The translations under genes and the position numbers were made by a program. Below, one piece after another: positions 43,125 to 59,121 of a stretch of DNA of 64,000 nt. The stretch covers positions 2,046,398-2,110,397 of the forward strand of contig NZ_KI912107.1 in assembly GCF_000517085.1 (NCBI RefSeq), given 5' to 3'. The notes under the pieces are model-generated. The model did no database searches. It saw only the letters and a list, made by a program, of their open reading frames with translations, and had not been told where the DNA came from. This DNA is from Saccharicrinis fermentans DSM 9555 = JCM 21142 (GTDB taxonomy: Bacteria; Bacteroidota; Bacteroidia; Bacteroidales; Marinilabiliaceae). Numbering within the stretch: position 1 is the stretch's first letter; each line of letters starts with the position of its first letter.

Positions 43125-43149
43125 ATGTTTATATATTTCTTTCAAAGGT

Positions 43150-43218
43150 CATATGAAACTTGCCTAAGTTAATCATTCTCGTATGTGAGAAGTACTTTAT
43201 CGTGGCTCGTTTCATATG
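43150..43218 (-). repeat. Leader inverted-repeat family R2, copy 1
   Basis: CATATGAAACTTGCC and GGCTCGTTTCATATG are the ends of a 69 bp element, complementary apart from two bases in the middle. The inner part TTCTCGTATGTGAGAA is itself a hairpin. Related copies lie before two other genes, and the distance to the sulfatase ATG is 25 bp. Confidence 0.75.
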
Positions 43219-43346
43219 TCTATAATTTATTTTCAACAATCTCTTGAAACGCATCCGTATAGGCCCCCATTACAAATAATGGCTGCCCTTAATGCATATT
43301 TATTATCAATCATTTAATTGTATTACAACAGAAACAATACGATGTA

Positions 43347-44750
43347 CTACCTCTTTTCACCACTTGTAGCTCTCTTAATATAAGCATCTCTTTTAGCCTC
43401 TTCCTTAGATATATTTTCGGCATGCGGATCAGTCCATAAGCCAGGCACAGTTCCTTTCCTCCACTGGGCATATAATCCCTGAAGTTCCTTTAAAACATCC
43501 GGTTTCTCTGCTGCCAGATTAGTATGCTCATACGGATCTTTCTCCATATCAAATAAAAGAAATCGATTTTTATAGGCAGACATTACCATTTTGTATTTAC
43601 CATGACGTACAGCATAACCTGCACCATCAGAATATCTCCAAAACAAAGTTTGATGAGGCTCACTCTTTATCTCTCCTTTAAAATAAGGAAGTAAGTTAAC
43701 TCCATCAAGATTTTTTGATTTAGGACACTTCACTCTTGTTGCAGCCAAGGCAGTGGGAAAAATATCCAAAGCAGAAACAGCATGTTCATATACCCGTCCA
43801 CTTGGTATTTTTCCTTTCCATGTTACCGAAAACGGTATACGAATACCTCCCTCAAAGAGCATTCCTTTATGCCCCCTGTAAGGATAGTTACTGGCTCCAT
43901 TCGTAGCTCCTCCATTATCACTATAATAAAAGATGATGGTATTCTCATATTCACCCGCATCTTTCAGCTTTTGAATTACTTTACCAACACCCTCATCCAT
44001 ACCAACAACCATGGCCGCATAGGCTGCACGGAATCCATCTTCGATATGACTGACCTTATCAGTATATTGTTTTGTAGCATGCACGGGTGAATGTGGTGCA
44101 TTATAGGCCAAATACATAAAAAAAGGTTTGTCTTTTTGTGTATATTCATCGATATAATTCACAGCCTCTTCTGTGAAGTTATCCGTAAGATAAGTTATTT
44201 CAGACATGGGAACAGGTTTACCATCTCTTAATATCCCTCCCATGGCTCCTCTTCCTTTTTTGGGCACCCCCCAATAACTAAGGCCTCCACCCCAGAAACC
44301 ATACCAATCATCAAACCCACGTTTATTTGGCCAATAATCAGTCGAATCGCCCAAATGCCATTTTCCAATCGCACAAGTCTGAAAATCATTCTTTTTAAAC
44401 AACTCCGACAGCATTAATTCATTCAAAGGCAATCCATCATCTGCTTCTGCATCATCGTAAGGTAAATTACATTCGTGACCAAAACGATGCTGGTATCTCC
44501 CTGATAATAACCCTGCCCTACTAGGACTACAATATGGGTGCGAAGCATAACCCTGCGAACAGATAATTCCATCCTTCGCTAAAGCATCTAAATTAGGTGT
44601 TGGAATATCCTTTGCTCCATTAAAACCAACATCTCCCCAACCTTGGTCGTCGGACAAAATAATTAAAACATTAGGAACTGTTTTTTTTTTAATCGCATTA
44701 ATTGTTAAAAAAGGCACTGCCAAAAGCAGCAAAACTAGAAAACGTTTCAT
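43347..44750 (-). CDS. Arylsulfatase-type S1 sulfatase
   Basis: 467 residues with a signal peptide (MKRFLVLLLLAVPFLTINA). The formylglycine Cys is C74 in CSPSRAGLLSGRYQHRFG, with D34-D35 (LSDDQGWGD) as metal ligands and FYYSDNGGATNGASNYPYRG carrying the later Asp-Asn. It resembles the arylsulfatase A-like group seen in marine Bacteroidota. It is on the same strand as the other sulfatase, about 220 bp upstream of it; the two differ enough to be separate genes rather than a recent duplication. Maturation needs an anSME or FGE enzyme, not found here. Confidence 0.94.
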   Translation of the reverse strand: MKRFLVLLLLAVPFLTINAIKKKTVPNVLIILSDDQGWGDVGFNGAKDIPTPNLDALAKDGIICSQGYASHPYCSPSRAGLLSGRYQHRFGHECNLPYDDAEADDGLPLNELMLSELFKKNDFQTCAIGKWHLGDSTDYWPNKRGFDDWYGFWGGGLSYWGVPKKGRGAMGGILRDGKPVPMSEITYLTDNFTEEAVNYIDEYTQKDKPFFMYLAYNAPHSPVHATKQYTDKVSHIEDGFRAAYAAMVVGMDEGVGKVIQKLKDAGEYENTIIFYYSDNGGATNGASNYPYRGHKGMLFEGGIRIPFSVTWKGKIPSGRVYEHAVSALDIFPTALAATRVKCPKSKNLDGVNLLPYFKGEIKSEPHQTLFWRYSDGAGYAVRHGKYKMVMSAYKNRFLLFDMEKDPYEHTNLAAEKPDVLKELQGLYAQWRKGTVPGLWTDPHAENISKEEAKRDAYIKRATSGEKR

Positions 44751-44935
44751 GGTGTTTATTTTAAATATCTAATAGTAATATTTTGAGATATTCAAAATTA
44801 GTAAGAAGCCTTACTTTAAGTGAGAATTTTATATTGAAAATTAGGGGGTGATTAATGTTTTATGGGATAACATTAGCAGTAACATTACACAAAAACTCTA
44901 CTTTGTGTTTTTTTGAAGGAGACAATAACTTTCTA

Positions 44936-46120
44936 TTACAGATTCTTCAGGGCTGCTTTTTTTCTTGTTTCATAGCTTGCAACAAGAATAGCGGCTCCAA
45001 TTCCTACCCCCATTACGATGTAAGAGGCCAACGAAAAAACACTAGATGCACCATAGCGCTCCATTAAATACCCATTCACCTGGGTACCCATTGCTGCTCC
45101 TAAAAACAAATTAAAAGAAGCCAAAGACATCACTGTCCCTTTCATTTGCCGCAATTCTTCCTGCAAGGTAGCTAATAATGTTGACTGAAGAAAAATAAAT
45201 GTGATCCCAAAACCCAATAATCCTACAGCTTGCCACCCTAAAACATTGGTGTATGCAAGTATGCTCAACGCGATAAATCCTAAAAAACCAGCACTTACTA
45301 AAAAACCATTTTTTAATATTTTTCTTAGATATGGGGCAATGCGTCCACCCAATACGGTTCCTACGCCATACAAGGACAGCACCAATCCAACGTTAAATAC
45401 ATTCAATCCAGTTCGCTCCATGATGCTCACCCCAGAAAAGGTGAAACTACCTAAAATAGCAAATCCAATAAAAAAAATAACACTCACTTTGCGCAAAAAA
45501 CGTTTATTAGAAAGGGCCAATTTATAGGATCCCCAGATGTTTAGCTGCCGTGTTACTGATTTGTCCTTCTTAAGCACCTTCAACATAACCATTGCCAAAA
45601 TAAACTCAGCAACTCCATATGCGAAGTAAACCAAACGCCAGGAACCAAAATAAGCAATAGCACCTCCAATAGCGGTTGCCATTGCTCCTCCTAAAAAAGC
45701 AATTCCCAACACCTTGCCTATAGCTTTCTGACGTTCACTATCGTTGTACATTTCTCCCACTAGGGCTATCGAAACAGGAATAATACCCGCCCCAAACAAT
45801 CCATTCATAGCCCTCAGAAAAACCAATGATGGCAAATCGTAGGCCAAGGCACCCAACATACTAAATACAGCCGTTCCAATAGCAGCCATATTAACAACCT
45901 TTGCCTTTCCATACCTATCGGCCAAGGGACCAAACAACAAGGTAAACAAGCCAAAAGCCATCATATAAGACGTAACCGAAAAAGCTGCAGTACTAATACT
46001 TAAGCCTAAATCTTTGGCTATATCGCTTAATAGTGCTGCAGCAGCCAGGTTATCGCCATTTGCCAAAAAGGTAATACCCCCTAACAAGCAAAGGGTCATA
46101 CCTTTCGTTCTATTCTCCAT
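44936..46120 (-). CDS. Major facilitator superfamily transporter
   Basis: 394 residues, 12 predicted helices. The loop 2-3 signature is LLFGPLADRYGKAKVVNMAA (GPLADRYG), and MEYVNG-type C-terminal repeats are present. The arrangement SIALVGEMYNDSERQKAIGK with EERL-like polar loops is typical of drug:H+ antiporters (DHA1, as in AraJ or YdhP). Substrate unknown. It lies upstream of the sulfatases on the same strand, with 185 bp spacing, so a link to them is only positional. Confidence 0.9.
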   Translation of the reverse strand: MENRTKGMTLCLLGGITFLANGDNLAAAALLSDIAKDLGLSISTAAFSVTSYMMAFGLFTLLFGPLADRYGKAKVVNMAAIGTAVFSMLGALAYDLPSLVFLRAMNGLFGAGIIPVSIALVGEMYNDSERQKAIGKVLGIAFLGGAMATAIGGAIAYFGSWRLVYFAYGVAEFILAMVMLKVLKKDKSVTRQLNIWGSYKLALSNKRFLRKVSVIFFIGFAILGSFTFSGVSIMERTGLNVFNVGLVLSLYGVGTVLGGRIAPYLRKILKNGFLVSAGFLGFIALSILAYTNVLGWQAVGLLGFGITFIFLQSTLLATLQEELRQMKGTVMSLASFNLFLGAAMGTQVNGYLMERYGASSVFSLASYIVMGVGIGAAILVASYETRKKAALKNL

Positions 46121-46226
46121 TTTGCATGCTTTTCTTTTTTTTACAAAGGTGTCATTTCGGGTCTAAACATATACACCAAAGCTCATCTCCTTCACCATAT
46201 CCGTTATGCCAAACCCGATACAACCG

Positions 46227-46775
46227 TTATTTTCTCCATGCATATTTCTTGAAACCTTCGTCTACAGGTGTTTCAGCAATACGATTGGTATAATTACTGA
46301 TTACTTTTTGTGATAAACCCAAAATAACTTCCAATACTTGCTGTTGTTGATAACCTGCCGCAAAAAATGCGTTTAATTCATCTTCAGAAACAGCACCTCT
46401 TTTTTGAACTACGGCAAGGGTAAACTCATGTAGCGCCTGTAACTTTTCGGTAGGCATAGCTGTTCCATTGCGCAGCGCTTCTGTAATTGCATCATCTACC
46501 TTCATCATCTTGGCAATTCCGGTATGAGCTGGCACACAATAATGACACTCATGTTCCACATTAATCGTCTGCCAAACAACCGTTAACTCATCGTTGTTAA
46601 AGGATGTCTCGGTAAATAACTTATGTAAGGTCTGATAAGCCTCAAGTGTTTCTGGCGATGCTGCTAACACACCATGTAATCCCGGTATGCTGCCAAACGC
46701 TTTTAATGAATTCTGTAAAATTGGCTGACTTTTTTCCGGTGCCGAAGACACATCGTGAATTTTAAATGTACTCAT
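46227..46775 (-). CDS. Carboxymuconolactone decarboxylase-family (AhpD-like) protein
   Basis: 182 residues, all-helical. The redox motif is EHECHYCVPAHTGIAKMM, i.e. CxxC followed by His, as in AhpD-type alkylhydroperoxidases. It lacks a decarboxylase-specific context. Location cytoplasm. Together with the peroxiredoxin-like gene 270 bp away on the same strand it suggests a peroxide-response pair; this is inference from proximity, as an R3 repeat separates them. Confidence 0.9.
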   Translation of the reverse strand: MSTFKIHDVSSAPEKSQPILQNSLKAFGSIPGLHGVLAASPETLEAYQTLHKLFTETSFNNDELTVVWQTINVEHECHYCVPAHTGIAKMMKVDDAITEALRNGTAMPTEKLQALHEFTLAVVQKRGAVSEDELNAFFAAGYQQQQVLEVILGLSQKVISNYTNRIAETPVDEGFKKYAWRK

Positions 46776-46838
46776 AAAATTTATTTTTAATTATTATTGT
46801 TTTTCTATGCAATTGCTTAGTAATATATTTCTACAATA

Positions 46839-47024
46839 ATGTATGCTATCTTGCATTTCTCAAAGCACACCTTAAATAGTCTTTGCAAGAAAACTCCAAA
46901 TACTGCGTTATTCTCATTTTTGAAACAGTCATTTACAATCAGTAAACTCCTTGGTTTCAAAAATATCGAAAGCCTTGTCTTTGAAGTTTTCTTATCAAAG
47001 ACAGAAAAAACGGTCGTTTTATAG
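46839..47024 (+). repeat. R3 repeat copy 2 with a 61-codon open frame
   Basis: The minus strand of 46935-47022 is nearly identical to 2109-2194. On the plus strand the whole 186 bp is an open frame starting MYAILHFSKHTLNSLCKKTP and ending FLSKTEKTVVL. The frame is not preserved as a gene in the 2.1 kb copy, so I treat this as a repeat rather than a protein gene. It lies between two convergence-free minus-strand genes. Confidence 0.7.
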
Positions 47025-47045
47025 TCTGAGAACGAAGGCTATTCG

Positions 47046-47609
47046 TTATGATTTTGCAAATACAGACTGTATTCCTGCAAAGGATTTTAAAATATCCATA
47101 TCTACATGGTCGTCAAGATGATTGCCATATTTTGCCATGACCACTTTAAAGTTTTCATCTATAAAAAAATCAGCCGGAATAAGGGTTCCACTGGCCTCTT
47201 TGTCTTCTGGCAAATTTAGGTGTGCCACCTCACGCTTTGCCTTTAAGGGGTTACTATGTAAAAAAGTATTGGCCATCTTCATCATTGAATTTTCAACTCC
47301 ATAAAGCTTATAAATCAGCTTTTCATGATCTCCAATAACTGGCCATTCACTAATTCCTCGATGAAATGAACTGGAAGATATTTTTTCATTGGAACTTTCA
47401 AACAACATTAACATCTGCACCCCTGCATTTTTTAACTTTTGCTTAAGCATCATTAACTGGTGCACTCTTCTGTTACAGAAAGGACAATTAACATTACGGT
47501 AAAAACCAAGTATAATTTTTCTTCCTTTAAAATCTGATAAACGAATGGTATTACCATTCAAATCAACAGCACTAAAATCTTTCGCAAACTGTCCTACTTT
47601 TATGTCCAT
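47046..47609 (-). CDS. Peroxiredoxin-like AhpC/TSA-fold protein
   Basis: 187 residues with a thioredoxin fold. The redox centre is NVNCPFCNRRVHQLM (CPFC), a variant found in peroxiredoxin-like and CPxC redoxins. The beginning DIKVGQFAKDFSAVDLNGNT and GLIPADFFID-like (SGTLIPADFFIDENFKVVMA) segment match AhpC/TSA family members of Bacteroidota. Probably reduces peroxides or disulfides in the cytoplasm. It has no signal peptide. Neighbouring AhpD-like gene suggests related function. Confidence 0.88.
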   Translation of the reverse strand: MDIKVGQFAKDFSAVDLNGNTIRLSDFKGRKIILGFYRNVNCPFCNRRVHQLMMLKQKLKNAGVQMLMLFESSNEKISSSSFHRGISEWPVIGDHEKLIYKLYGVENSMMKMANTFLHSNPLKAKREVAHLNLPEDKEASGTLIPADFFIDENFKVVMAKYGNHLDDHVDMDILKSFAGIQSVFAKS

Positions 47610-47912
47610 AATTTCTTTTTATACATGTCTACTTACCAAAACAAAACATCCTTCTTTAACTGTCAATGGTCACTCAAAAGCTTTTAAATAACCATTGGGA
47701 CAAATATTAACAGCACAAATCTAAGCAACTGCTTTGTTATTTCCAAATTTTATTCCAATTATCTATGATGAGCGGTTGAGATTCAATAAATCCTCTACTT
47801 ATTTAATGAATAAATATTTTATATTGATAACATATCAACATGTTAGCACTTAACCCTTCGATTGCAGCGTAAATTAAAGGCCAGTGGAAGCAGATAGATA
47901 TCAAGGTGCTAT
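47610..47912. other. Intergenic region, 303 bp
   Basis: No gene, terminator or repeat seen. A short palindrome AACAT-ATCAAC-ATGTT near 47830 is not convincing as a site. It should hold the promoter of the peroxiredoxin-like gene. Confidence 0.4.
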
Positions 47913-49271
47913 TTAATCTTTAATTAATTTCCCTATACTCACATATTGATCGTACTTGATGTAGTAAATATAAAGTCCTTTTTCCAAAGCACTTATATCA
48001 ACGCTCTCAGCGTTATTGATCGTTGACGAAATTATTTTGTTTCCATCAATATTATATAATTCAAACAATACATAGAAATATTCGCTGGGGCAATTTACGT
48101 AAATAATTTCCCGTGCCGGATTCGGATAAACATTTACAGCTTCCGAAAAAAGGTACTGAGTATCGGTTCCTGTTTCAATTGTAGTAGAATAGTAATATCC
48201 GACTTCTCCATATCTTTCCTCTTGTTTTGTTTCAGGATTGTATTTGCTAAGACTTGTATTTAAAAGCTTATGATGAAACTTTAATTCCTGATGTGTTAAA
48301 TAATTTGATAATAAAATATCACCCCAAAAGAACGAAAAGTCAAATTCATACGTTTTCCAGCTAATATTATGCTGAATAGAACCATCCTCCACAGGAGGCT
48401 TTATAAACACATTTGCATTTCTTTTTAAATAATCATTTTCATCATAACTATACCCTTTTCTATTTGTTAATCTCCAATGATCGTCACTTGCATTGTCCCA
48501 TTCATAGCTTGACAAAGTAATTAAGCGCCATTGCAAATCATACAAATACCATTCTTTTCGTATCTCAACACACTTATTAGCAACACTATCCCAAGACGAA
48601 TAAAAAACATAATGTAGTTCATTATCATTTATATACTCATAATCAATTTTCTCTTGCAATTGCCATTTCTGCGAATTGACATACCACGCATACAAACTAT
48701 CTGTTAAAGGTTGACCTTGCGCATTATAACTACAATCTAATTTCTCTGTCAACTGCCAATCATCTAAATCATATCGCCACTTATAGCAAAGTTTTTGAAT
48801 CAAAACCTTGTCTTCGTTATAAATACACTCCCATTTTCTTTCTTTATTCCACTGATCATTTGACCATGCAAATTGAATATTCACCACACCGCTTATTAAC
48901 TCGTCGTATTGCGATTCCTCCTTTATACAATCTAGCCACTTGTTGTCACCAGCACTCCATACTGAATAAACCCAAGCAATCTCATTACAATTATCATCGT
49001 ATTCAAACGCTTCTTTAATATATTGTTTATCCCAAGCGCTGGTCATTTCATCGTAGCTACACACAATAATACTATCCAATTTCTCCTTAAAGAGGTATTT
49101 TGGCCTTAAATTACGTTGAATAACTCTATGTTCTGACTCATAAAGCTGTCCTTGCATATCTTGAACTGAATACTGATGTAATAAAGAAATCGAATTCGAG
49201 GACTTTCTTTGTCCAAAAGTCAACAAATAGAAACATAAACCAATAATCAAAAATAAATACTGCCTTTTCAT
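47913..49271 (-). CDS. T9SS type A sorting-domain cell-surface protein
   Basis: 452 residues with a signal peptide (YLFLIIGLCFYLLTFGQ). The body has about six irregular repeats of Y/W-rich strands (DEMTSAWDKQYIKEAFEYDD, WQLTEKLDCSYNAQGQPLTD), resembling Bacteroidota YD-like surface repeats. The C-terminal 75 residues are a classic sorting domain: NVYPNPAREIIYVNC, then ELYNIDGNKIISSTI, and ALEKGLYIYYIKYDQYVSIG. This domain directs export through the type IX secretion system and attachment or release at the surface. Substrate or partner unknown. Monocistronic. Confidence 0.9.
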   Translation of the reverse strand: MKRQYLFLIIGLCFYLLTFGQRKSSNSISLLHQYSVQDMQGQLYESEHRVIQRNLRPKYLFKEKLDSIIVCSYDEMTSAWDKQYIKEAFEYDDNCNEIAWVYSVWSAGDNKWLDCIKEESQYDELISGVVNIQFAWSNDQWNKERKWECIYNEDKVLIQKLCYKWRYDLDDWQLTEKLDCSYNAQGQPLTDSLYAWYVNSQKWQLQEKIDYEYINDNELHYVFYSSWDSVANKCVEIRKEWYLYDLQWRLITLSSYEWDNASDDHWRLTNRKGYSYDENDYLKRNANVFIKPPVEDGSIQHNISWKTYEFDFSFFWGDILLSNYLTHQELKFHHKLLNTSLSKYNPETKQEERYGEVGYYYSTTIETGTDTQYLFSEAVNVYPNPAREIIYVNCPSEYFYVLFELYNIDGNKIISSTINNAESVDISALEKGLYIYYIKYDQYVSIGKLIKD

Positions 49272-49343
49272 CCTTATATTTTTTGTACAAACACAAAATA
49301 AAAGAATGATTTACGAAGTAAAGTTGCCTCAGGATAACTTATA

Positions 49344-49955
49344 CTATTTTTTGCTTCTATAAAAACACTTCTTTTCCTTGCTATATTGTTGCGGTGTCAT
49401 ATTTAAATAACTAGCCACATACTTATCTTGTGTATCTTTCAGAATATAGTCAGCCCGCTCTACTATTTCATGAAAGAGAGAGAAGCGTTTTGAAGGATTT
49501 CTATTTTGCAATACAACCATTCTATTTTCGCGATCGAGTAGAATTCTTTCATATATTTTAAACATGAGGTAACTAAATTCATGGTTGTTTTGGGCTAATG
49601 TTTCTATATCTTTCTTTTCTATGGAAATGATGGTTGTATTGATGATAGCTTCATGTACTTCGAGAGATGGCGATCCGTCAATATAACTTTTAAGATTATT
49701 AAAACCCAAGCCTTTAGGCGTAATATTTATGGTCTTGCACTCTCCTTCGTCAAAAACATATTGATGCACAACTCCCTTCAACACGATACTTGCCTTTGTT
49801 TCAACTTCTCCTATCTTTAGGATAGATTCTCCTTTTTTGTAAAAGTTCTTGGTAAAGTAAATGCCTATCTCTTCCAGTGTTTTTTGTGAAATCTGACTGA
49901 ACGGTTTAATAAATGCATGCAATAGCTCAAAATCATGTGTACTTAAGTCATTCAT
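49344..49955 (-). CDS. Crp/Fnr-family transcriptional regulator
   Basis: About 203 residues if started at MNDLSTHDFELLHAFI (49955); an ATG 12 bp upstream is equally possible, and the much longer frame (to 50054) is unlikely. An N-terminal cyclic-nucleotide-binding fold (25-125, with FTKNFYKKGESILKIGEVET and ASIVLKGVVHQYVFDEGE) is followed by a long dimer helix and a C-terminal winged-helix-like end (YVASYLNMTPQQYSKEKKCF). The final recognition helix ends sooner than in classic Bacteroidota members (TPETLSRIRKK), so DNA contact may differ. It is divergent from the flavin/ferredoxin gene, a plausible target. Confidence 0.85.
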   Translation of the reverse strand: MNDLSTHDFELLHAFIKPFSQISQKTLEEIGIYFTKNFYKKGESILKIGEVETKASIVLKGVVHQYVFDEGECKTINITPKGLGFNNLKSYIDGSPSLEVHEAIINTTIISIEKKDIETLAQNNHEFSYLMFKIYERILLDRENRMVVLQNRNPSKRFSLFHEIVERADYILKDTQDKYVASYLNMTPQQYSKEKKCFYRSKK

Positions 49956-50304
49956 ACTTCTTATCATTTTCTTAGGAGCGTAAAACAGTAATGCAAGGCC
50001 TGATAACGCTCTTCGTTTTTGTTGATAATAAAAGTAACAATAATAAATAAACAATTAATGCACTCATTAATAAAGGCAAGCGAGAATGTATCCTGCATAG
50101 AGAAATATAAAGAAGCTTCAAGACAGAATCATCTTCATATAGAAGAGCCATGGGGAGCTATTATAAAAAACATACCACATTACTATTGAACCGTTTTTTG
50201 CGAACATTATTCGTATAAAAAAGAGCAAATGTATCGTATTTAGGAGCAAAATTACCTTTTGCGGTATTTTCATTTCAAGGAATTTTGTAGCCTAAAATTA
50301 TCAC
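49956..50304. other. Divergent intergenic region between Crp-family and flavin/ferredoxin genes
   Basis: 349 bp. Both promoters should be here. A near-match to the -7 box (TACCTTTTG, one base too long) lies about 50 bp before the ATG at 50305. No clear Crp-type palindrome recognised. Confidence 0.4.
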
Positions 50305-50928
50305 ATGGAAACAAAGGAATATTTTAAGATTTTAGTAGATGAAATCCATTCCGTTGTTATCGCAACAAGCGATAATAACGGATTACCAACAACACGAGTA
50401 ATCGACATGATGCTTTTTGACAATGAAGGCATATACTTTTTAACAGCCAAAGGGAAAACTTTTTATGAGCAATTAATGTATAAATCTTATGTGTCGGTAA
50501 GTGGAATGACAGCAAGTACAGGCTCAATGGGAAAAAAAGCCATTTCAATTTCTGGTGCTGTGCGAAATATTGGCTCCAATAAATTAGATGCCATTTTTGA
50601 AAAGAATAAGTACATGTCAGAAATTTATCCCACAGCTAAAAGTCGCACAGCCCTAGAGGTTTTCTGTTTGTATAGAGGTCAAGGGGAATATTTCGATTTG
50701 TCAACAAAACCGATTACACGCGGTAGTTTTTCGTTTGGTGGTCAAAAACTAAAGACATTCGGCTATTATATTAGCGACAATTGTCATGGCTGCGGATTGT
50801 GCGTAGAGAAATGCCCACAAAATTGTATAGACAGTGGAACGCCATTTGAAATTAAACAGGAACATTGTTTACATTGTGGAAACTGCTACGAAGTCTGCCC
50901 TAAAAGTGCAGTAATTAAACTTAAATAA
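50305..50928 (+). CDS. FMN-binding PNPOx-like protein fused to 2[4Fe-4S] ferredoxin
   Basis: 207 residues. N-terminal split-barrel flavin-binding domain (1-130: SVVIATSDNNGLPTTRVIDM, YVSVSGMTASTGS), then a bacterial ferredoxin domain with two clusters: CHGCGLCVEKCP and CLHCGNCYEVCP. Such fusions are likely flavin-iron-sulfur oxidoreductases that pass electrons between NAD(P)H or a donor and an unknown acceptor. Cytoplasmic. Divergently transcribed from the Crp-type regulator, which is a common pairing for redox- or nucleotide-sensing switches. A DUF427 fragment follows 13 bp downstream. Confidence 0.9.
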   Translation: METKEYFKILVDEIHSVVIATSDNNGLPTTRVIDMMLFDNEGIYFLTAKGKTFYEQLMYKSYVSVSGMTASTGSMGKKAISISGAVRNIGSNKLDAIFEKNKYMSEIYPTAKSRTALEVFCLYRGQGEYFDLSTKPITRGSFSFGGQKLKTFGYYISDNCHGCGLCVEKCPQNCIDSGTPFEIKQEHCLHCGNCYEVCPKSAVIKLK

Positions 50929-50941
50929 TAGGTTAATATAA

Positions 50942-51133
50942 AAAGAATATTTAAAAGAAAGCGAGACCCAAACAGTTTGTCACTGGAAGGGAACAGCTTC
51001 CTATTATGATTTGCAAGTGGATGGGAAAGTAAACACCGACACCCTTTGGCACTACCCCACTCCATCGGGACTTGCCCAAAGTATAAGGAATCGCGTAGCT
51101 TTTTGGAAGGGAGTAGAGCTTGTTAACGACTAG
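50942..51133 (+). pseudogene. 5'-truncated DUF427 protein remnant
   Basis: Translating from 50942 gives 63 residues ending in a TAG: EYLKESETQTVCHWKGTASY then YDLQVDGKVNTDT, WHYPTPSGLAQSIRNRVAFW and KGVELVND. This is the conserved C-terminal two thirds of DUF427 (CxWKGTASYYxVxVDGK). A stop lies immediately upstream and there is no start codon in the open part, so the first 30 or so residues are missing. Frame intact otherwise. Either an old partial deletion or a fragment carried by rearrangement; it abuts the converging MutS-like gene by 10 bp. Confidence 0.85.
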
Positions 51134-51143
51134 AATCAGGTTT

Positions 51144-52466
51144 CTATTCATGAATAATATCTAGAATACCTTCATTTTCGATGATTATCATCCCATGCCT
51201 ATCATCCGTTATGCCATCCGCTAATTTGTATGGATATGTTGGTACACTCCCTTTCATTACGGTTGGTAAATATTTAAAGAACAAACGATCATTACTTTCT
51301 TTCAATGTTTGTCCAGCCTCCATAATATGCGTAGAGATGATGAATGCACCTTTGCGTTTTGAGAAAGCATCCACAATAGAAACAGTACCATCATAAGCAT
51401 CTTTTACATTAGTTCCTTTAAACAATTCATCAAAGACAATTACCAATTGTTTATCAGAAGCTACTTCTTGTGCAATATACTTTACTCTTAACACTTCCGC
51501 ATAAAAGTGTGAGTACCCCATTACTAAATTATCAGGCACATTAATAGAAGTATAAATTCCATCATGCAAGGCAAAATTCATTTCTTTTGCTGCAACTGGA
51601 AACCCCATATGTGCCAAATAAATTGCAATAGAAAATGACTTCATAAATGTTGATTTACCGGCCATATTTGCACCTGTTAAAAAGAATACATTCTTATTTT
51701 CACCTATATAAACATCATTGGCAATTGCATTGGGTATTGCAGGATGGTATACTCCTTTTATATCAATAAATTTTTCTGATTTATCCACTGCATTTGCATA
51801 GCGATAGCCCTTTTCTCTAGCCAAATTAGATACTGCAATATAAATATCCAATTCATAAATTTCATTCAGCAATTCAGTGATTCGATCGTTCAAATAAGCC
51901 CTAAAAATATAATCCAGTTTAAATACATTTTTAAACGACAAAGGTTTTTGTTCAATGCAGGCATAAGCCAAATCAAAATGCTTATCAGTTAATAAATCAA
52001 GGTTTTTTTTAGCCTGTGCATGATAAGCAGTATTTCGAGCAGCTTGCTCAACACCCACCATTAAGTCTTTAAGCCTAGCAAATATTTCGATGGTTTTCTC
52101 TAGTCCCTCTCTAAAAGCCGAATAATCTTTATCTCCAGCCACAAAGTCTAAAAACTTAATCTTTGCAATATTCACAGCAGCGAGCAATCTATTTTTTGAT
52201 TCTGTATTTCGTAAATAATTTTCAACGATATCAAACTCTTTTTCTGTAAACGGCAATGCAATATTTATTTTCTCAAATAGTGCAAAAATATCTCTTCGTT
52301 TATTTATAGAGAGGATATCATCAAAAGGATGTTGAAACATTTTCTCTAACAGTCTGCCACCACCAGAAGTAATGGTATGGTTAAACAAACTAAAGATGGA
52401 GTTATTTTTATAACGCCCCAATATATTCAGGTCATCTAATGTTTGTTTATCAGTAACAAATCCCAT
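51144..52466 (-). CDS. Short MutS-like ATPase, copy 2
   Basis: 440 residues, the core/lever helices plus the ABC-type ATPase of MutS, without the mismatch-reading N-terminal domains. The start LNILGRYKNNSIFSLFNHTI aligns with the beginning of MutS domain III. ATPase motifs: GANMAGKSTFMKSFSIAIYL (Walker A), VIVFDELFKGTNVKDAYDGT (Walker B), and ISTHIMEAG (His switch). It lacks an Smr tail. Close paralog of the next gene and only 5 bp from it. Role unknown; such proteins occur across Bacteroidota and are not proven repair factors. Confidence 0.9.
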   Translation of the reverse strand: MGFVTDKQTLDDLNILGRYKNNSIFSLFNHTITSGGGRLLEKMFQHPFDDILSINKRRDIFALFEKINIALPFTEKEFDIVENYLRNTESKNRLLAAVNIAKIKFLDFVAGDKDYSAFREGLEKTIEIFARLKDLMVGVEQAARNTAYHAQAKKNLDLLTDKHFDLAYACIEQKPLSFKNVFKLDYIFRAYLNDRITELLNEIYELDIYIAVSNLAREKGYRYANAVDKSEKFIDIKGVYHPAIPNAIANDVYIGENKNVFFLTGANMAGKSTFMKSFSIAIYLAHMGFPVAAKEMNFALHDGIYTSINVPDNLVMGYSHFYAEVLRVKYIAQEVASDKQLVIVFDELFKGTNVKDAYDGTVSIVDAFSKRKGAFIISTHIMEAGQTLKESNDRLFFKYLPTVMKGSVPTYPYKLADGITDDRHGMIIIENEGILDIIHE

Positions 52467-52471
52467 TTCTC

Positions 52472-53800
52472 TTATTTTTTTAAAATATCCAATATTTTTT
52501 CATTATTGATAATCACCATTCCGTGTCTATCTTCTGTAATGCCTTCCGTAATCTGATAGGTATATTTAGGAACCTTGCCGTTCATTAATGTTGGAAGGTA
52601 GACAAACATAATATTGTCACGTAGTTTTTTCAACGCCTCGCCTGCTTCTATGATATGGGTCGAAATAACAAATGTACATTTACGTTTACTGGCAAAAGCA
52701 TCCATTACAGCAACCGTTGCATCGTAAGCATCTTTTACATTTGTTCCTCGAAAAAGCTCATCAAATACAACTATCATGCGGTCATTATTTCGTAAACTTT
52801 CTGCCACTTTTTTAACACGCGCAACCTCTGCATAAAAATGTGAAAATCCCATATTTAAATTATCGGCAAGATTAATGGTAGTAAACATTCCATTTTGAAT
52901 GCTGAAACGAATCTTTTCTGCAGGAACAGGAAAGCCCATATGACATAAATAAATGGCAATACTAAACGTTTTCATAAAAGTGGATTTTCCAGCCATATTT
53001 GCACCTGTCAAAAACACCATATTATTATCTTCAGTAATCTTAATATTATTAGAAATAGCATTGGGTACTAAAGGATGATAAACTCCTTTCATTTCTATAA
53101 GATTAGCTTCATCGTTTACGATTTCAGCAAAAGAAAAATTATGAAGCATGGAAATCTCTGCCAATGCCAAATACACATCAATTTCATAGACATAATAAAG
53201 TAGTTTTAAAATATCTTCTTTACTTTCAGTAAAACGAAACAATTGATCAAACTCAGCTGTTTTGGTATAGTTAGGTTTACTAATCTTTTGGAGTTCTGTA
53301 ACAAAGGAGAAGTTCCTTTTATTTAGAATTTCATTGATTGTTCCAATTGTTTTACCAAATTCTGCTGTCGATCCATTGCCATCAAGTGAATTCAAAAAGC
53401 TTTTCAAATCCAAGATAAACTGAAGCGTATTCACCACCCCCTTTTGCAATTGTTGATAGCCTGAATCTGCACCAATCGCAGAATTAAATTTCCGTTGCAA
53501 ATTATCTTGATGAGCTGATAAACGGGTTCGTTCATCTATATTCTTTAAATAATCCTCTACAACATCAAAAGCTTCTTTTTTAAATGAAAATGTCAGTTCT
53601 TTTTCCTTAAAGAATTTGATCATGTTCACCCTATTCATAATCTCATCCTCGCTAGAACGAGGATAAAGAAACATATCTCGCATTAGATTGGCTCCACCTC
53701 GGGTTTTAGTGCGGTTATAAAAACTAAACACATCATCCCCTTTATAACCTCCAACCATTTTCAAATCCCCAATGGTTTGCTTATCTATTTTAAATACCAT
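52472..53800 (-). CDS. Short MutS-like ATPase, copy 1
   Basis: 442 residues, same architecture as its neighbour and recognisably homologous along its whole length (LKMVGGYKGDDVFSFYNRTK, GANMAGKSTFMKTFSIAIYL, VVFDELFRGTNVKDAYDATV, STHIIEAGEALKKL). Both keep Walker A, Walker B and the switch His, so both should hydrolyse ATP. They have diverged well below near-identity, indicating an old tandem duplication kept by selection. Probably a dimer or heterodimer with DNA-clamp geometry; inference. First gene of the two-gene unit. Confidence 0.9.
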   Translation of the reverse strand: MVFKIDKQTIGDLKMVGGYKGDDVFSFYNRTKTRGGANLMRDMFLYPRSSEDEIMNRVNMIKFFKEKELTFSFKKEAFDVVEDYLKNIDERTRLSAHQDNLQRKFNSAIGADSGYQQLQKGVVNTLQFILDLKSFLNSLDGNGSTAEFGKTIGTINEILNKRNFSFVTELQKISKPNYTKTAEFDQLFRFTESKEDILKLLYYVYEIDVYLALAEISMLHNFSFAEIVNDEANLIEMKGVYHPLVPNAISNNIKITEDNNMVFLTGANMAGKSTFMKTFSIAIYLCHMGFPVPAEKIRFSIQNGMFTTINLADNLNMGFSHFYAEVARVKKVAESLRNNDRMIVVFDELFRGTNVKDAYDATVAVMDAFASKRKCTFVISTHIIEAGEALKKLRDNIMFVYLPTLMNGKVPKYTYQITEGITEDRHGMVIINNEKILDILKK

Positions 53801-53834
53801 ATATTTTGATATGTATAAGACTTCCTTTCATCAA

Positions 53835-53874
53835 GGCCTCAGTCATCCTGAAAATACATCAGGATGACGGGCCT
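53835..53874 (-). terminator. Hairpin terminator of the ABC operon
   Basis: GTCATCCTGA / TCAGGATGAC stem with loop AAATACA, extended by GGCCT / GGGCCT with a mismatch. It follows the permease gene (minus strand) by 37 bp and precedes the MutS-like pair. Confidence 0.7.
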
Positions 53875-53910
53875 AAAAATCAAAGGATGATCTTTGTTTA
53901 TTCCTCTTTA

Positions 53911-56349
53911 TTACCTTCCGCGCCTTCTTAACCAGATGAATAACAAAATCATAGCAAACATAGCAGGTATAAGAAGTCTATAAAGAAACTCATACATACC
54001 TATTTCATCTTTTTCCAAAAGCATATTATCATCTAGGTTTAAAGGACGACGCACATTTACAGGGCTTTCCTCATGGGTTAACCAATAAAACATACGGCTG
54101 ATAAAATCATAATTTCCGGATACAATACCAGTTCTACGAATTGAGATTTCACCATTAGCAAAGCAATCCGCATCTCCTAAAATCAATATACGTTGTTCTT
54201 TACCCTCTACATTTCTAGCCAAAGTTAACCCAGTTACTAAGGCACCTCCTAATTCGCCTTCTACAGGGTTATACATTGGAAAATCATCAATAAAATCTGT
54301 CACGTCTAATTCATTCCAACTTCCATGAAACTTACCTCTATCTGCAGGTTTAGCTTCACGTCCTTTTAACATTTCCAGCATACGTTTTTGATCTTCAGAT
54401 AATCCGGCAGGTTCTTCGGGCTCAACATAATCACCTCTTAAGCTTTCCACTTCAGAAGCGCTAGGTAAGTTACCTATAACATCAGAAACCAATTCTTGCG
54501 TATAAACAAAACCCGACTTTTCATGACCCAACTTTTCATCATAAGAAAGCGACAAAGCTCCAGGCATAGTCACAACTCTCTTGTTGGGTGAACCATTGGG
54601 GGGAGCAGATGTTACAAAATCCATGGTATATCCTTTGTTAAATTCAACAACCTGACCTGGATTAAATTTAACATCAAACTGTTGAACCAAGGGATTCATC
54701 ACCGCTTGACGTTTTATATCTGCTGCAATGACTAAATTACCACCCCTATCGATATACTCGTTTAAATGCATCATTTCCATATCCGAAAAATGCTCTTTAG
54801 ATTCTGCAACTATTAATATATCTATATAAGACGGAACTGTTTTCTGCAAATTCAAGGATGTAAAATCAATACCATTGTTCAGCATACTCTCTCTGAATTG
54901 CTTATCCTTAACAACTGTAAAATACCCTCTGGTTCCCATATTATCTATATCCCTTTCACCATGACCATTCACAAAACCAACCATAGGAAGAGTTTCTACT
55001 AACCCTTTTAGTGCAGCTGTAATTTGTGCTTCGGAAGGATTCCTAGTCATATCATCATACCAATGTAAAAAGGCAATTTTACCATCTTCTGTTTCAATTT
55101 TTCTTACACAGCGATTTAACTCAGCTTGGAGATTAATTTCGTCTTTAAATGCGGATGCAGGTTTAATTTTATCCACATCCATATTATAGACATTACAATA
55201 TTTCTCCAATATTTGCTGCTCAGTCTTACCAGAATTTGCTCTAATAAATCTCTGGTAATCTTTTTCGTACATGGGTGTTGCATAGTAATATTTATACTCC
55301 AACTCAATATTAGGATAGAATCGGTAATATTTTTCAAAAAATGCTTGATCCCTTTTTTGGCTTCTAGGCGAAACACTCCGGAAATTAAGACCATAAATAT
55401 TAGCATAGGTTGTAATTTTAATCTTCCCCTCAAACTTTGACATTACTTCCTGGCTTGACTTAGTTAAAGTGTTCAGATTATTACGAGTGGAATCATAATA
55501 TTTCATCATGGAAGGGACTGTAGAAACGTAGCCCAATAAAGCAACCACCAAAAATGCCGATACATATCTACCTATTGATATATATCGAGAACTCTTTTCT
55601 CTGATTCCTTTTAAACGGAAAATAGAAAATGTAATAAACAGTCCAGATACAAAAACAAAGTACAATACATCTTCAGTACAAATCAGTCCATCAATAAAGG
55701 TTCTTGATCTGCCATTTAGAGATAGCCAATATGTAATGTCACGAATAAAATCCACATCCTGCCATAAATTTCCAATTTTCCCCAAAGAAAAAAGCAAGAA
55801 AATGGTACCAATGGCAGCTACAATTTGGTAAGAAGTAATAGACGATACAAATAAACCTATTGCCGAGTAAGCACACATAAGCAGAAACAAGCCTAACACA
55901 CCTGTAATAACCTGTCCGAAGTCAAAAAAATCGATACCAGCAAATCCTAGCAGACCGGCAAGTAAAACAACAATGGACATGGCAAAACTAAATACAACAG
56001 CCGCTAAATATTTACCTAATACAATTTGTTTGTTCGATATGGGTGATGAATACAATAATTTAATGGACCCAGAACTAAACTCCTTACTCATTAAGCCCAT
56101 CGTTACTAATGGAAGAAAAATAAACAACCACTCTTGTATTCCACTAAAGTAACCACGTCCTCCCCCATATAATTGAGCAGTAACCGGACTTTGACCATAT
56201 CCAAGTGAAAAACGATGTACCCAACTACTCATTTGGTCCACAATCTCAAAGCCTGATTGAACAGAGAAAATGATCAAGACCAACCATGCGATTGGTGAAA
56301 AGAACATCTTCTGAAGTTCCATTTTTGCTATTACTAATATTTCTTTCAT
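53911..56349 (-). CDS. Fused ABC-2 permease and GldG-like protein
   Basis: 812 residues from MKEILVIAKMELQK (56349); the extra 7 codons upstream are discounted. Six helices of an ABC-2 permease (1-245, with SSGSIKLLYSSPISNKQIVL) correspond to GldF. The rest (about 265-775) is a GldG/IFT52-like periplasmic domain (VVALLGYVSTVPSMMKYYDS, then FVNGHGERDIDNMGTRGYFT, ILIVAESKEHFSD) ending in a last membrane helix (LLIPAMFAMILLFIWLRRRG). It partners the ATPase gene just upstream. GldF and GldG are separate in gliding bacteria, so this is a natural fusion. Substrate unknown. An R2 element ends 25 bp before the start. Confidence 0.88.
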   Translation of the reverse strand: MKEILVIAKMELQKMFFSPIAWLVLIIFSVQSGFEIVDQMSSWVHRFSLGYGQSPVTAQLYGGGRGYFSGIQEWLFIFLPLVTMGLMSKEFSSGSIKLLYSSPISNKQIVLGKYLAAVVFSFAMSIVVLLAGLLGFAGIDFFDFGQVITGVLGLFLLMCAYSAIGLFVSSITSYQIVAAIGTIFLLFSLGKIGNLWQDVDFIRDITYWLSLNGRSRTFIDGLICTEDVLYFVFVSGLFITFSIFRLKGIREKSSRYISIGRYVSAFLVVALLGYVSTVPSMMKYYDSTRNNLNTLTKSSQEVMSKFEGKIKITTYANIYGLNFRSVSPRSQKRDQAFFEKYYRFYPNIELEYKYYYATPMYEKDYQRFIRANSGKTEQQILEKYCNVYNMDVDKIKPASAFKDEINLQAELNRCVRKIETEDGKIAFLHWYDDMTRNPSEAQITAALKGLVETLPMVGFVNGHGERDIDNMGTRGYFTVVKDKQFRESMLNNGIDFTSLNLQKTVPSYIDILIVAESKEHFSDMEMMHLNEYIDRGGNLVIAADIKRQAVMNPLVQQFDVKFNPGQVVEFNKGYTMDFVTSAPPNGSPNKRVVTMPGALSLSYDEKLGHEKSGFVYTQELVSDVIGNLPSASEVESLRGDYVEPEEPAGLSEDQKRMLEMLKGREAKPADRGKFHGSWNELDVTDFIDDFPMYNPVEGELGGALVTGLTLARNVEGKEQRILILGDADCFANGEISIRRTGIVSGNYDFISRMFYWLTHEESPVNVRRPLNLDDNMLLEKDEIGMYEFLYRLLIPAMFAMILLFIWLRRRGR

Positions 56350-56374
56350 ATGCTTAATTTTATCTTTCAATGGA

Positions 56375-56442
56375 CATATGGAACTCGCCAGAATTTAATC
56401 ATTCCACAGTATGTGAAATAATTCACTTGACTCGTTTCATAT
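56375..56442 (-). repeat. Leader inverted-repeat family R2, copy 2
   Basis: CATATGGAACTCGCC and GACTCGTTTCATAT bound a 68 bp unit. The interior keeps the AATCATT and GTATGTGA blocks of copy 1. Ends 25 bp before the permease ATG, the same distance as copy 1. Confidence 0.7.
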
Positions 56443-56454
56443 AATTATTCCTTT

Positions 56455-57372
56455 TTATTTAGACAGTGCCGAGAAAACATCGTTTAATGAATTTTTCTCT
56501 AAATTAATTTCCTCTAAGCGCCAATCCTGTTTAACACTCTCCTTAACAATTCGCTCGGCAGCACCATTCAGGTTGTCAAATCTGAATCTATAATCAGGAC
56601 CTCCCAGTTCTTCAACACTTTCAACGCCATCAATTTTCATAAGCACATCCACTGATGGCATTTCAAGCAACCTAACTTTGATAGAATTGGGAGCCAAATA
56701 GTTATCAAACTCTTCTGTTTTACCAGAGAAAACCAATTTTCCACTCTCAATCATTAAAATATAATCACAAATAGCCTGAACCTCTGTAAGCATATGTGTT
56801 GACAATAGTACAGCACATTCTTTCGCTATTTCTTTAATTAATCCACGGATTCCTATAATTTGATTCGGGTCCAATCCATTGGTAGGTTCATCTAACACAA
56901 TTAATGCAGGCTTATGAATAATTGCTTGTGCAATTCCCACGCGTTGTTGATATCCACCTGAAAGATTTTTAATTAAACGTTTTCTAAAATGGGTGATGGA
57001 ACATATATCCATTACCTCCTCCACTGCAGTTTTTAAATCCTTGGATCCAATTTTTCTTAGCTGCGCACAGTTGGTTAAATACTCCTCTACTGTAGTATCC
57101 AGATATAAAGGTGGTTTTTGTGGCAAAAAACCAATTAATTTCTTTGCCGAAATAGGATCTCGTGACATATCTATTCCTTTGATATAAATATTACCCTGAG
57201 ATTGCCTTAACACCCCACTCATAATATTCATTGTAGTCGATTTACCAGCACCATTGGAGCCCAAAAGACCATATATCCCATTTTGTGGAATCTCAAAACT
57301 TACATCTTTTACTGCCCACTGTATGCTGTAACGGTGTGATAAGTTTTCGACTCTGACTAATGCATTATTCAT
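56455..57372 (-). CDS. ABC transporter ATP-binding protein, GldA-like
   Basis: 305 residues. Walker A GLLGSNGAGKST, Q-loop FLPQKPPLYLDTTVEEYL, signature LSGGYQQRVGIAQAI, Walker B LIVLDEPTNGLDP, and the switch His in LLSTHMLTEVQAI. The C-terminal 80 residues (VRLLEMPSVDVLMKIDGVES) form the usual ABC-2 exporter accessory part. It is the ATPase for the fused permease that follows. Together they resemble a GldA-GldFG exporter. First gene of the operon; an R1 repeat lies upstream. Confidence 0.92.
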   Translation of the reverse strand: MNNALVRVENLSHRYSIQWAVKDVSFEIPQNGIYGLLGSNGAGKSTTMNIMSGVLRQSQGNIYIKGIDMSRDPISAKKLIGFLPQKPPLYLDTTVEEYLTNCAQLRKIGSKDLKTAVEEVMDICSITHFRKRLIKNLSGGYQQRVGIAQAIIHKPALIVLDEPTNGLDPNQIIGIRGLIKEIAKECAVLLSTHMLTEVQAICDYILMIESGKLVFSGKTEEFDNYLAPNSIKVRLLEMPSVDVLMKIDGVESVEELGGPDYRFRFDNLNGAAERIVKESVKQDWRLEEINLEKNSLNDVFSALSK

Positions 57373-57401
57373 TCTTCGAAAAATTTAATTGATTTTTATA
57401 T

Positions 57402-57564
57402 CCGGATAATGTATTAGAACTTCGTCATGAGAATTAAAAGGGCCATCCATCAAGAACCTGTTTAAATGAGACATAGCACCGCTATGGAAAATAAAAACAA
57501 GTTAGCTGGCGACTTGCTTGGCAACAGTTTTAATTCGCAATAAATTTTCTAATACATTATTCGG
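57402..57564 (+). repeat. R1 repeat, full copy B
   Basis: 163 bp with termini CCGGATAATGTATTAGAA and TTCTAATACATTATTCGG, 17 of 18 complementary. Interior homologous to copy A (CTTCGTC-TGAGAATTAAAAG, AACATAGCACCGC-ATGG, TTTAATTCGCAA). Outside right it continues GGGTTTAATTCCTTCTTGCC, shared with copy D. Confidence 0.8.
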
Positions 57565-57655
57565 GTTTAATTCCTTCTTGCCCAAAACAACAAGCTACAT
57601 AACAACTCATGCTATTTCTTCTAAGATCTTAAAATCGGGTTTGTCGATTATATCT

Positions 57656-59041
57656 TTATTTGACTCCAATATTTAACGAGTTAAATAAATCGATTATTTC
57701 CGGATTCGAAGGACGTGGTGCATGCTGAGTTACAATTACACCTTCTGGGTCCAATAATATAAAACGAGGAATTGATCTAATTATATAATCTTGTACAAAT
57801 TGAGAATTAAAGGAACTATCTGCAAGCACTTGAATACCACCCAGTTTTTTATCTACAATCATTTTTTTCCATTTATCATGATCTTTAGAATCATCAACCG
57901 AAATACTCAAAAAACGAATATTCTTGCCGCGATAGGCTTTTTCTAACTTCTTTAAATGCGGCAATTCAGCAACACAAGGTCCACACCATGTGGCCCAAAC
58001 ATCTATAAAAACATATTTCCCTTTTAGGTCATCCAACGAAAGCGTTCCTCCTGCATTGTTCTCATAATCAACAAACTTTGGTGACTGGCGACCTTGATTT
58101 AGTTCAATTAATCTATTGTAAATTTTGGTAATCTTAGCATTATTTTCTTCGTTTGTAGAAGCAGCCATAAATATTTTGTAAAATTCCTCAAATTTTCCTG
58201 TATTATAAATGGTACTTTCCGCTCCAGAGATAATCAGTTCGTTCTTTATGGTTTGATTTGGAATGGTTGAATAGATGGTAACCTTTATAAGACCGTAATC
58301 AATGGAGTCTTTTTTAATTAATTGATTGATTTTTTTATTATAAAAACGATTAACTATTTCTTTATAGGCACCCGAAAAGTAAAAATCAACCTCATTATTC
58401 AGATCTACATCATTTAATCCTACCAACAAACTTTTAGAAGGTTTATAGTCTCGCTTTTGAGCCCATTGCCTATGATAACCACCGGCGTAACGTGATAATT
58501 CATTTAAATACTCATAATTTAGATTGCGTTTTTCTAAAGCTATAAAGGCAGGAGCCATTCCTTGGGCTGCATCTAATTGGGCATTTAAGGTATTACATAG
58601 TCCCTTAAATTTATTTTCAAAATCAGCTTCTTCCAACTTATAAACATCCATGCCTTTACCTTTTAGTTCCGCTATCATTTTATTCTTAGCTAAAAGATAG
58701 TTTGTGGCTTCAGCCCCTATACCTGAAACATCTAGGGAATTAAGAAAATCCTTGGCATCTGCTGTAATGTTAATAGCACTCCCATTGTCTAAATATACAC
58801 TCATCTTATTTTTACCTGCAGTTAGCAAATATAATCCAGGATTCGCATTGATTGTATCGGCGAAATTACCATTTGAATCAATCGAAATTTTCTTGCTAAA
58901 CGACTTATCCGCTTTTATTAACCATACCTCTTTATTATCAATATTGTCAATTTTACCAGTAAATAGGGCATACTTCGGAGTTTCTTTGATGCAGGCCACC
59001 AGATTTAAAACCAATACTAAACTAAATAATACTTTCTTCAT
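57656..59041 (-). CDS. TlpA-family thiol-disulfide lipoprotein with DUF4369
   Basis: 461 residues from [17 protein letters not shown], a lipoprotein signal with the modified Cys C17; 26 upstream codons of the long frame fall in the R2 repeat and are discounted. N-terminal DUF4369 (20-130, [20 protein letters not shown]), a helical linker, and a C-terminal thioredoxin fold with [12 protein letters not shown], where the active cysteines are C353 and C356, preceded by YVFIDV. It reduces or isomerises disulfides at the periplasmic face. Adjacent to a SusCD operon but separated by a strong terminator. Confidence 0.92.
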
Positions 59042-59064
59042 ACGTTTAAATTTATTTTTAAGGC

Positions 59065-59121
59065 CATATAAATTAATCATACCCCTGTTGAAAGAAGCTA
59101 TTTCCATGGCTCGTTCCATAT
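59065..59121 (-). repeat. Leader inverted-repeat family R2, copy 3 (left arm shortened)
   Basis: Keeps the right end GGCTCGTTCCATAT and inner TTAATCATAC, while the left arm is cut to CATATA. It ends 23 bp before the TlpA ATG. Here the leader is in frame with the TlpA gene, producing the false longer N-terminus. Confidence 0.65.

Follow-up and report, generated by a model that had tools for sequence, protein, structure and literature searches.

It is broadly with the small non-autonomous mobile repeats that we group a non-coding unit met three times in a 64-kb window of the Saccharicrinis fermentans genome ('the window' is the whole stretch of DNA analysed, G000:C3:2046398-2110397, G000 being this source genome), although on testing it lacks some defining features of each of the REP/RAYT, miniature inverted-repeat transposable element (MITE), IS200/605 and integron cassette systems. 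The unit, of about 84-90 bp, is very probably a mobile element, presumably moved in trans, that inserts at ATGAA(A) and strongly favours start codons, and not a fixed regulatory leader.

The repetitive extragenic palindromic (REP) sequences and bacterial interspersed mosaic elements (BIMEs) that go with RAYT transposases resemble the unit in being short, palindromic and non-coding, in exceeding 100 copies per genome and in lying mostly outside genes. Unlike them, the unit keeps a single orientation relative to the gene and reaches onto the start codon, and its source genome, judged by PF01797, contains no intact RAYT. REP elements carry a conserved tetranucleotide tag, GTAG, GTGG or CGTC, at the foot of the hairpin. 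GTAG and CGTC are named in the title of one paper (PMC3733652). By eye, no such tag is present at the hairpin foot in the alignment of units. MITEs and, as they are generally known, the RUP, ERIC, Correia and RPE repeats share with the unit a non-autonomous nature, the lack of a conserved open reading frame (ORF), young near-identical copies and a target word at both ends. In the portion of its main text available to us, a 2024 review of prokaryotic MITEs does not contain the term 'start codon' (PMC10969869). In contrast to MITEs, the inverted repeat of the unit is internal, and the unit goes to a single fixed word that is in most cases a start codon; there are no terminal inverted repeats, the ends CGAGCC... 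and ...AAACAY not being complementary. In the loci read, no autonomous transposon with the ends of the unit was noticed (whole genomes were not searched for split ends).

Non-autonomous derivatives of IS200/IS605 are alike in having a hairpin near one end and a fixed short target, and the likeness may extend to guide pairing and a joined-end form. The fixed short target is seen in the unit as ATGAA(A) at its joints, the left ATGAAA being part of the pattern by which copies in named genomes were retrieved. The difference is that no Y1 gene, as recognized by PF01797, tracks the copies of the unit; moreover, we know of no start-codon preference in IS200/IS605. With integron cassettes and their attC sites there is a likeness in the imperfect hairpin site, the tandem stacking and a possible circular form, but the source genome has no integron integrase over the cut-off. 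The attC boxes follow the consensus RYYYAAC / GTTRRRY, which the ATGAAAC and GTTCCAT of the unit do not match.

The nearest printed pattern met is different in kind. In the part of the account available, TAACTGA heptamer repeats are described from Beggiatoaceae and some Bacteroidetes, with 169 sets in one genome, and like the unit they lie mostly in one orientation just upstream of starts with no pattern of gene function (PMC4679880). They are, however, 7-bp direct repeats, the largest class of which ends 1 nt before the start (PMC4679880), whereas the unit is a 90-bp hairpin that includes the start. Neither an element like the unit nor a start-codon niche is described in the titles and abstract openings of the literature searched, from which subscription papers were largely absent.

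Anatomy and distribution of the unit

From the letters of the window alone, an earlier note had described a ~70-bp inverted-repeat leader on the same strand as three unrelated genes and 25, 25 and 23 bp before their starts. Strand and distances are borne out by the sequence, the third copy being degenerate, but the length is not: the unit is really ~90 bp and runs through the spacer onto the start codon. The ends then given, CATATGAAAC..GCC and GGC..GTTTCATATG, are right for units 1 and 2 and wrong for unit 3, whose 3′ arm is partly lost. The features in the window are as follows, with bit scores against a profile of 36 units, window units 1 and 2 among them, and hyphens marking joints.

43119..43215, minus strand: unit 1, type 1, before the sulfatase gene; 70.5 bits
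43210..43215, minus strand: left ATGAAA of unit 1, from the sequence, with the boundary from unit comparisons
43150..43159, minus strand: 3′ arm GTTTCATATG of unit 1, complement of CATATGAAAC
43125..43149, minus strand: A-rich leader tail of unit 1, 25 nt, like a native translation-initiation region
43119..43124, minus strand: right ATGAAA of unit 1, giving the sulfatase its start codon and second codon
43216..43236, minus strand: probable relic tail (TTGAAAATAAATTATAGACAT) of an older, otherwise lost upstream unit
56344..56440, minus strand: unit 2, type 1, flanked by an ABC ATPase gene (56455-57372) and a permease gene; 76.6 bits
56375..56384, minus strand: 3′ arm GTTCCATATG of unit 2
56344..56349, minus strand: right ATGAAA of unit 2, the start of the ABC-2/Gld-like permease
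59036..59119, minus strand: unit 3, degenerate, left ATGGAACGAGCC kept, right end CGT-ATGAAG; 36.9 bits
59036..59041, minus strand: right ATGAAG of unit 3, the start of a thioredoxin-fold protein
13269..13367, plus strand: decayed type-2 relic (ATGAAACTGGCATGGCC...), right joint ATAAAT, no gene start

In unit 1 the left and right ATGs are 91 bp apart, the right one continuing as ATGAAA, and 25 bp separate the arm end (43150) from the ATG at 43124-43122; the same 25 bp lie between 56375 and the ATG at 56349-56347 in unit 2. Unit 3 has lost ~12 bp of its 3′ arm (around GGCGAGTTCC) and stands 23 bp ahead of the ATG at 59041. By Pfam the three genes that follow are a sulfatase, an ABC-2 membrane plus ABC_transp_aux protein (a Gld-type permease) and a protein of the AhpC-TSA/thioredoxin fold. 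The end of the ATPase gene (56455) is 105 bp from the start of its permease partner, and 91 of these are filled by unit 2, a placement that looks like insertion into an operon.

Across its copies the unit reads ATGAAA-CGAGCC...hairpin...A-rich leader...CAY-ATGAAA over ~90 bp, and its terminal ATGAAA supplies the downstream gene with its first two codons, the start included. The left end, ATGAAACGAGCCATGA, is followed in order by an inner part that varies, an apical stretch that many copies retain and that resembles CACA.AGG.GAATGA, the 3′ arm GGCGAGTTCCATRTG and a tail in which positions -13 to -11 are mostly A and CAY lies ahead of the ATG. In 79 of 90 units the distance from one start to the other is 88-91 bp. 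Two sister types, type 2 (~93 bp) and type B, have their architecture and apical motif in common with the main unit. On folding against shuffles, two of four single copies came out well below (z -4.05 and -4.98) and the other two weakly below (z -2.05 and -1.62). Rfam had no match in the whole window at gathering score, and the one match of copy 1 at a loose threshold was at chance level (E 3.8). A conserved upstream peptide (MKRAM..HTGE) was considered and rejected, its frame on reading not being kept in relatives or in type-B units. L195 and L238, units of different assemblies, have the same extra palindrome, CCCGATAGCTATCGGG, in their inner part, perhaps a nested small repeat.

The genome-wide search that the note had proposed gave matches beyond chance: at least 160 in the source genome with a sequence model of the 36 units (150 of 4850 candidates scored), and at least 52 with copy 1 as the blast query (40 of 189 candidates scored). 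The covariance modelling proposed alongside was less rewarding, RNAalifold finding no consensus pair in the 36 units and the resulting model, R1, being sequence-only. In 578 kb of the source genome, picked because matches lie there, 161 hits were read, 149 of them near full length. Matches occur in 25 of 41 genomes including its own (24 of 40 relatives) and in 17 of 33 genera. From named genomes an exact two-ended pattern retrieved at least 118 stretches, a stricter pattern tried before it having matched none. All 80 matches listed from named genomes are Bacteroidota by title. Among the matches listed, most are from Carboxylicivirga, Saccharicrinis, Labilibacter, Labilibaculum, Natronoflexus, Plebeiobacterium and Prolixibacteraceae, which we take to be Bacteroidales, and a few are titled Chitinophaga or Cyclobacteriaceae. 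There was no match in viral contigs (one exact pattern), nor in plasmids or phages (one blastn query each).

Start codons as probable landing sites

The 161 source-genome hits divide into 97 whose end meets an ORF of 60 aa or more (one of them, at position 768881, a false call within a 270-bp repeat), 26 that run into another unit, 30 that end on a short ORF (followed in six cases by a type-2 unit and in eight lying within the 270-bp repeat) and eight with no ATG. The model used for these includes the 3′ end of the unit. The pattern used for the named set requires the left ATGAAA and omits the right end, and because it leaves out the 3′ end of the unit greater reliance is placed on that set. 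With 'gene' there meaning an ORF of at least 60 aa, or of at least 30 aa if running off the locus, 90 of the 119 distinct named copies are on genes, 12 are tandem-like, 11 are on short ORFs, two are on ORFs of 30-59 aa and four have no ATG or are at a locus edge. The right joints of the 90 are ATGAAA in 85, ATGAAT in three, ATGAAC in one and ATGCAA in one. Constant spacing, a single strand and leader position before unrelated genes, all remarked on in the earlier note, are true far beyond the window (97 of 161 source-genome and 90 of 119 named copies); random distances on both strands were looked for and not seen, a minority of copies being off gene starts. The spacing is constant because insertion is at ATGAA(A).

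How far might this merely reflect where ATGAAA occurs? Simple ORF calling places the ATGAAA words outside units in the named loci at 142 starts, 203 intergenic positions and 1016 coding positions. Among start and intergenic words 41% (142/345) would be expected to be starts, and starts are where 90 of 103 named copies are observed (binomial p about 2e-22, with copies treated as independent). Of the 13 non-start named copies, four run in the sense direction within open frames, close to the 3′ ends of these, and a fifth is antisense at an open-frame end. What is targeted is therefore a DNA word and not the start codon itself, but starts are strongly preferred in addition. Where no older tail is obvious, the left flank ends in CAY in 12 of 72 cases versus 2 of 142 native ATGAAA starts, and this hints at an additional preference in sequence.

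Insertion, age and stacking

The earlier note had set its leader against a random insertion. Insertion is nonetheless shown by sister starts that are free of units, by tandem stacks and by a recent near-identical subfamily, and some copies are within open frames or in DNA lacking a gene start. Four genes that bear a unit in the source genome (by reading LeuB, KsgA, an MFS transporter and one more) were compared with 31 homologous loci in sister species, each the best match in its genome, and at all of these loci the start is free of a unit (L288 has one elsewhere). At the MFS gene the relative G004 reads straight into ATGAAT, and the source genome has ATGAAAC at the left joint and ATGAAT at the right; the host therefore keeps its own right codon there and the exchange is within ATGAA. 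Since ATGAA is present at both ends of the unit, target-site duplication and exchange inside the common word explain the joints equally. The left flanks have 0.63-0.73 A at -13 to -11 (n = 62) versus 0.64-0.69 at 96 native starts, the tail of the unit having 0.84-0.96 (n = 90), and such a native A-rich signature is what one would see if insertion had parted a gene from its native initiation region.

Thirty-one source-genome copies at least 93% identical to one consensus (26 at genes, two in the 270-bp repeat, one in a tandem and two short) mark recent spread. Near-full units form 22 tandem pairs. In 12 of the 13 informative ones the young unit is gene-proximal and in one it is distal, and therefore new units usually arrive at the current start codon. 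Young copies with unrelated left flanks are at 5566238, 23065, 2193649, 5244971, 1719954 and 5764999; orthologues at the first of these, read to learn whether its left GTG is native, do not have conserved N-termini. The type-2 relic at 13269-13367, with no start codon at its right joint, indicates that old units outlive the loss of a gene start.

Covariation of the 3′ arm with the right end

Among 115 named copies the arm and the right joint go together: CATGTG with CAC in 60 and CATATG with CAT in 42, leaving three wobble pairs (CATGTG with CAT), one mismatch (CATATG with CAC) and nine others. The arm has no clear association with the left-flank base (T32 G16 C15 A9 versus T18 C14 G10 A5), and host DNA in the left flank would account for a right -1 base tied to the arm and a left one with no clear tie. 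One arm base is unpaired with ATGAAA in 117 of 119 named copies, window copy 1 having a pairing base. A tree of 106 units allows 21 independent switches in its best form whatever the support, and by reading both arm forms are in at least eight named assemblies. Because the left CAY position is the host's in an integrated single copy, the pairing suggests a joined-end intermediate, either circular or tandem.

One scheme very probably brings these features together. The family, its positions, the lineage-specific insertions, the order of stacking and the covariation are observed, and the intermediate, the enzyme and the continued translation of host genes are inferred. Insertion at ATGAA(A) would leave one such word at each end of the unit: the right one would be the start of the gene, usually with its Lys codon, preceded by the unit's own A-rich initiation region, and the left one would be stranded with the old leader ~90 bp upstream. 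New copies would usually land on the start codon then current, so pushing older units upstream to decay. The 3′ arm would pair with the unit's own right end (CAYATGAAA), with the stem complete only when the ends are joined, in a form that would read ...CAYATGAAACGAGCC.... An enzyme acting in trans would presumably carry out the reaction. To judge from what appears to be a full Bacteroidota initiation region within the unit, host genes should stay translated. The unit may also act on translation or on the stability of the transcript.

Candidates for the mobilizing enzyme

PF01797 picks out four open frames in the source genome, 95, 141, 105 and 54 aa long and in two cases interrupted by stops, and by this one model there is no intact Y1/RAYT transposase. 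The relatives G014, G018, G022 and G023 have copies of the unit yet no PF01797 match. Reverse transcriptase (PF00078) has 29 matches in the source genome, several with equal score, and 0-6 in the eight other genomes of the genus; as the mobilizer it is not supported, G009 and G013 having 68 and 69 unit matches and no reverse transcriptase match. An integron integrase is over the cut-off in one of 41 genomes (G031), which has no unit match. Other tyrosine recombinases are numerous and indistinguishable as candidates here. Five tyrosine recombinase matches with equal score in the source genome (149951, 1273822, 1331340, 1812946 and 1833576) are possibly a mobile element of their own.

By reading, the Y1 remnant at 1571187 seems to accompany the 270-bp repeat, which is REP-like and different from the unit; nine of its loci carry a type-B unit as a passenger. 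Within the window an inverted repeat at 46887-46993 (arms AAGAAAACTCCAAATACTGCG... and ...CCTTGTCTTTGAAGTTTTCTT) resembles this 270-bp family by eye. A weak short Y1-like frame at 2217582 in L099 (G000:C3:2214700-2221500) is within ~2 kb of units at 2216748 and 2219284. Elsewhere in the window, neighbouring same-strand ORFs of 440 and 442 aa at 51144-53800, with stretches 74% and 79% identical in DNA, are a tandem gene duplication.

Weighing the explanations

A number of observations count against a mobile element with a taste for start codons. Neither the intermediate nor transposition has been directly seen, and no mobilizing enzyme was found: PF01797 and PF00078 counts do not track the copy number of the unit and no integron integrase reaches the cut-off in the source genome. 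Only two independent arm switches are on well-supported branches, though at these the joint changes to match the arm (on average in 1.9 of 2). Among the named copies 115 have a right ATG, and 13 of these are on neither a gene nor a tandem, one tandem pair is contrary to the polarity of stacking, the right joint ATGCAA would restrict the common word to ATG unless it is mutated, and the ATG in use may be unit-borne or the host's. The 36 aligned units have no consensus RNA structure by RNAalifold, and a chimera test of the inner hairpin was negative (mean stem 3.35 observed and 3.35 in chimeras). Furthermore, start codons might be favoured by selection instead of by the machinery.

This last thought can be taken further, with the unit inserting at any ATGAAA and the excess at starts being what is left after selection has removed gene-breaking copies, and though we regard it as unlikely it deserves to be taken seriously. 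A short DNA word as target is in keeping with it, as are the four sense copies near the 3′ ends of open frames and the antisense one at an open-frame end; however, intergenic ATGAAA words that are not starts should be tolerated alike and exceed starts (203 versus 142), yet 90 of 103 named copies are on starts, as are 26 of 28 young source-genome copies outside tandems and the other repeat. Another rival takes the unit to be the regulatory 5′ leader RNA, a binding site or switch, of a large regulon, kept for its control of translation or mRNA stability, with mobility secondary; a leader RNA acting on translation or transcript stability is what the earlier note had suggested. The leader position, constant spacing and single strand would suit such an RNA, as would folding well below shuffles in two of four copies and a 3′ arm for which the left ATGAAAC and the start codon are alternative partners, possibly as a switch. 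We nevertheless hold it to be decidedly improbable, as the hosts look unrelated (LeuB, KsgA, peptidase T, lipoproteins and permeases, from reading N-termini and, for window genes, from Pfam), none of the 31 homologous loci of the four tested genes shares the unit, Rfam offers nothing at gathering score and one chance-level match, the upstream frame is not kept, the inner-stem test was negative, and copies are also inside open frames and another repeat.

Two further explanations accept that the unit spreads and differ as to how. In the first, a Y1 (HUH) transposase moves the unit, which would be REP-like or derived from IS200/605 and would have the subterminal hairpin, fixed short target and guide pairing of such elements. 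The hairpin, the short fixed target, the arm/right-end covariation and the possible joined-end form resemble the IS200/605 family, and a divergent Y1 protein could possibly lie beyond the reach of the Pfam model. This explanation is improbable, since 31 near-identical copies stand against PF01797 matches that number four and are short or broken, four relatives bear copies and have no match, and the remnant at 1571187 appears tied to a different repeat. Finally, existing copies might recombine homologously or undergo gene conversion with one another, so that dedicated mobility would not be needed. The many young copies on or beside older units or their tails would fit this, but several young copies have unrelated left flanks and little beyond the ATGAA word in common with the host site, so that spread by this means alone is very improbable indeed.

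Implications

If the unit is indeed a mobile element that inserts at start codons, it may even represent a new mobile class whose niche is the start codon, a tentative suggestion that we would not press. In it a tiny DNA with a guide hairpin, complete only when its ends are joined, would be inserted by a recombinase at start-codon ATGAA and give the gene a ready-made initiation region, being harmless in hundreds of leaders while rewiring translation.

To land on a start codon and bring a new start region for the gene would be an unusual and harmless lifestyle for a mobile element, and one solution to the problem of inserting into a gene-dense genome. Bacteroidota ribosomes, according to the part of a published account available to us, do not recognize Shine-Dalgarno sequences (PMC9976891), and the unit would offer a natural, repeatedly tested and portable initiation region for these bacteria. 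It would also point to an enzyme with a preference for start codons. For the genomes themselves it would mean that well over a hundred 5′ leaders in such a genome are insertions, many of them recent, and that inserted leaders can mislead the annotation of promoters, leader RNAs and start sites.

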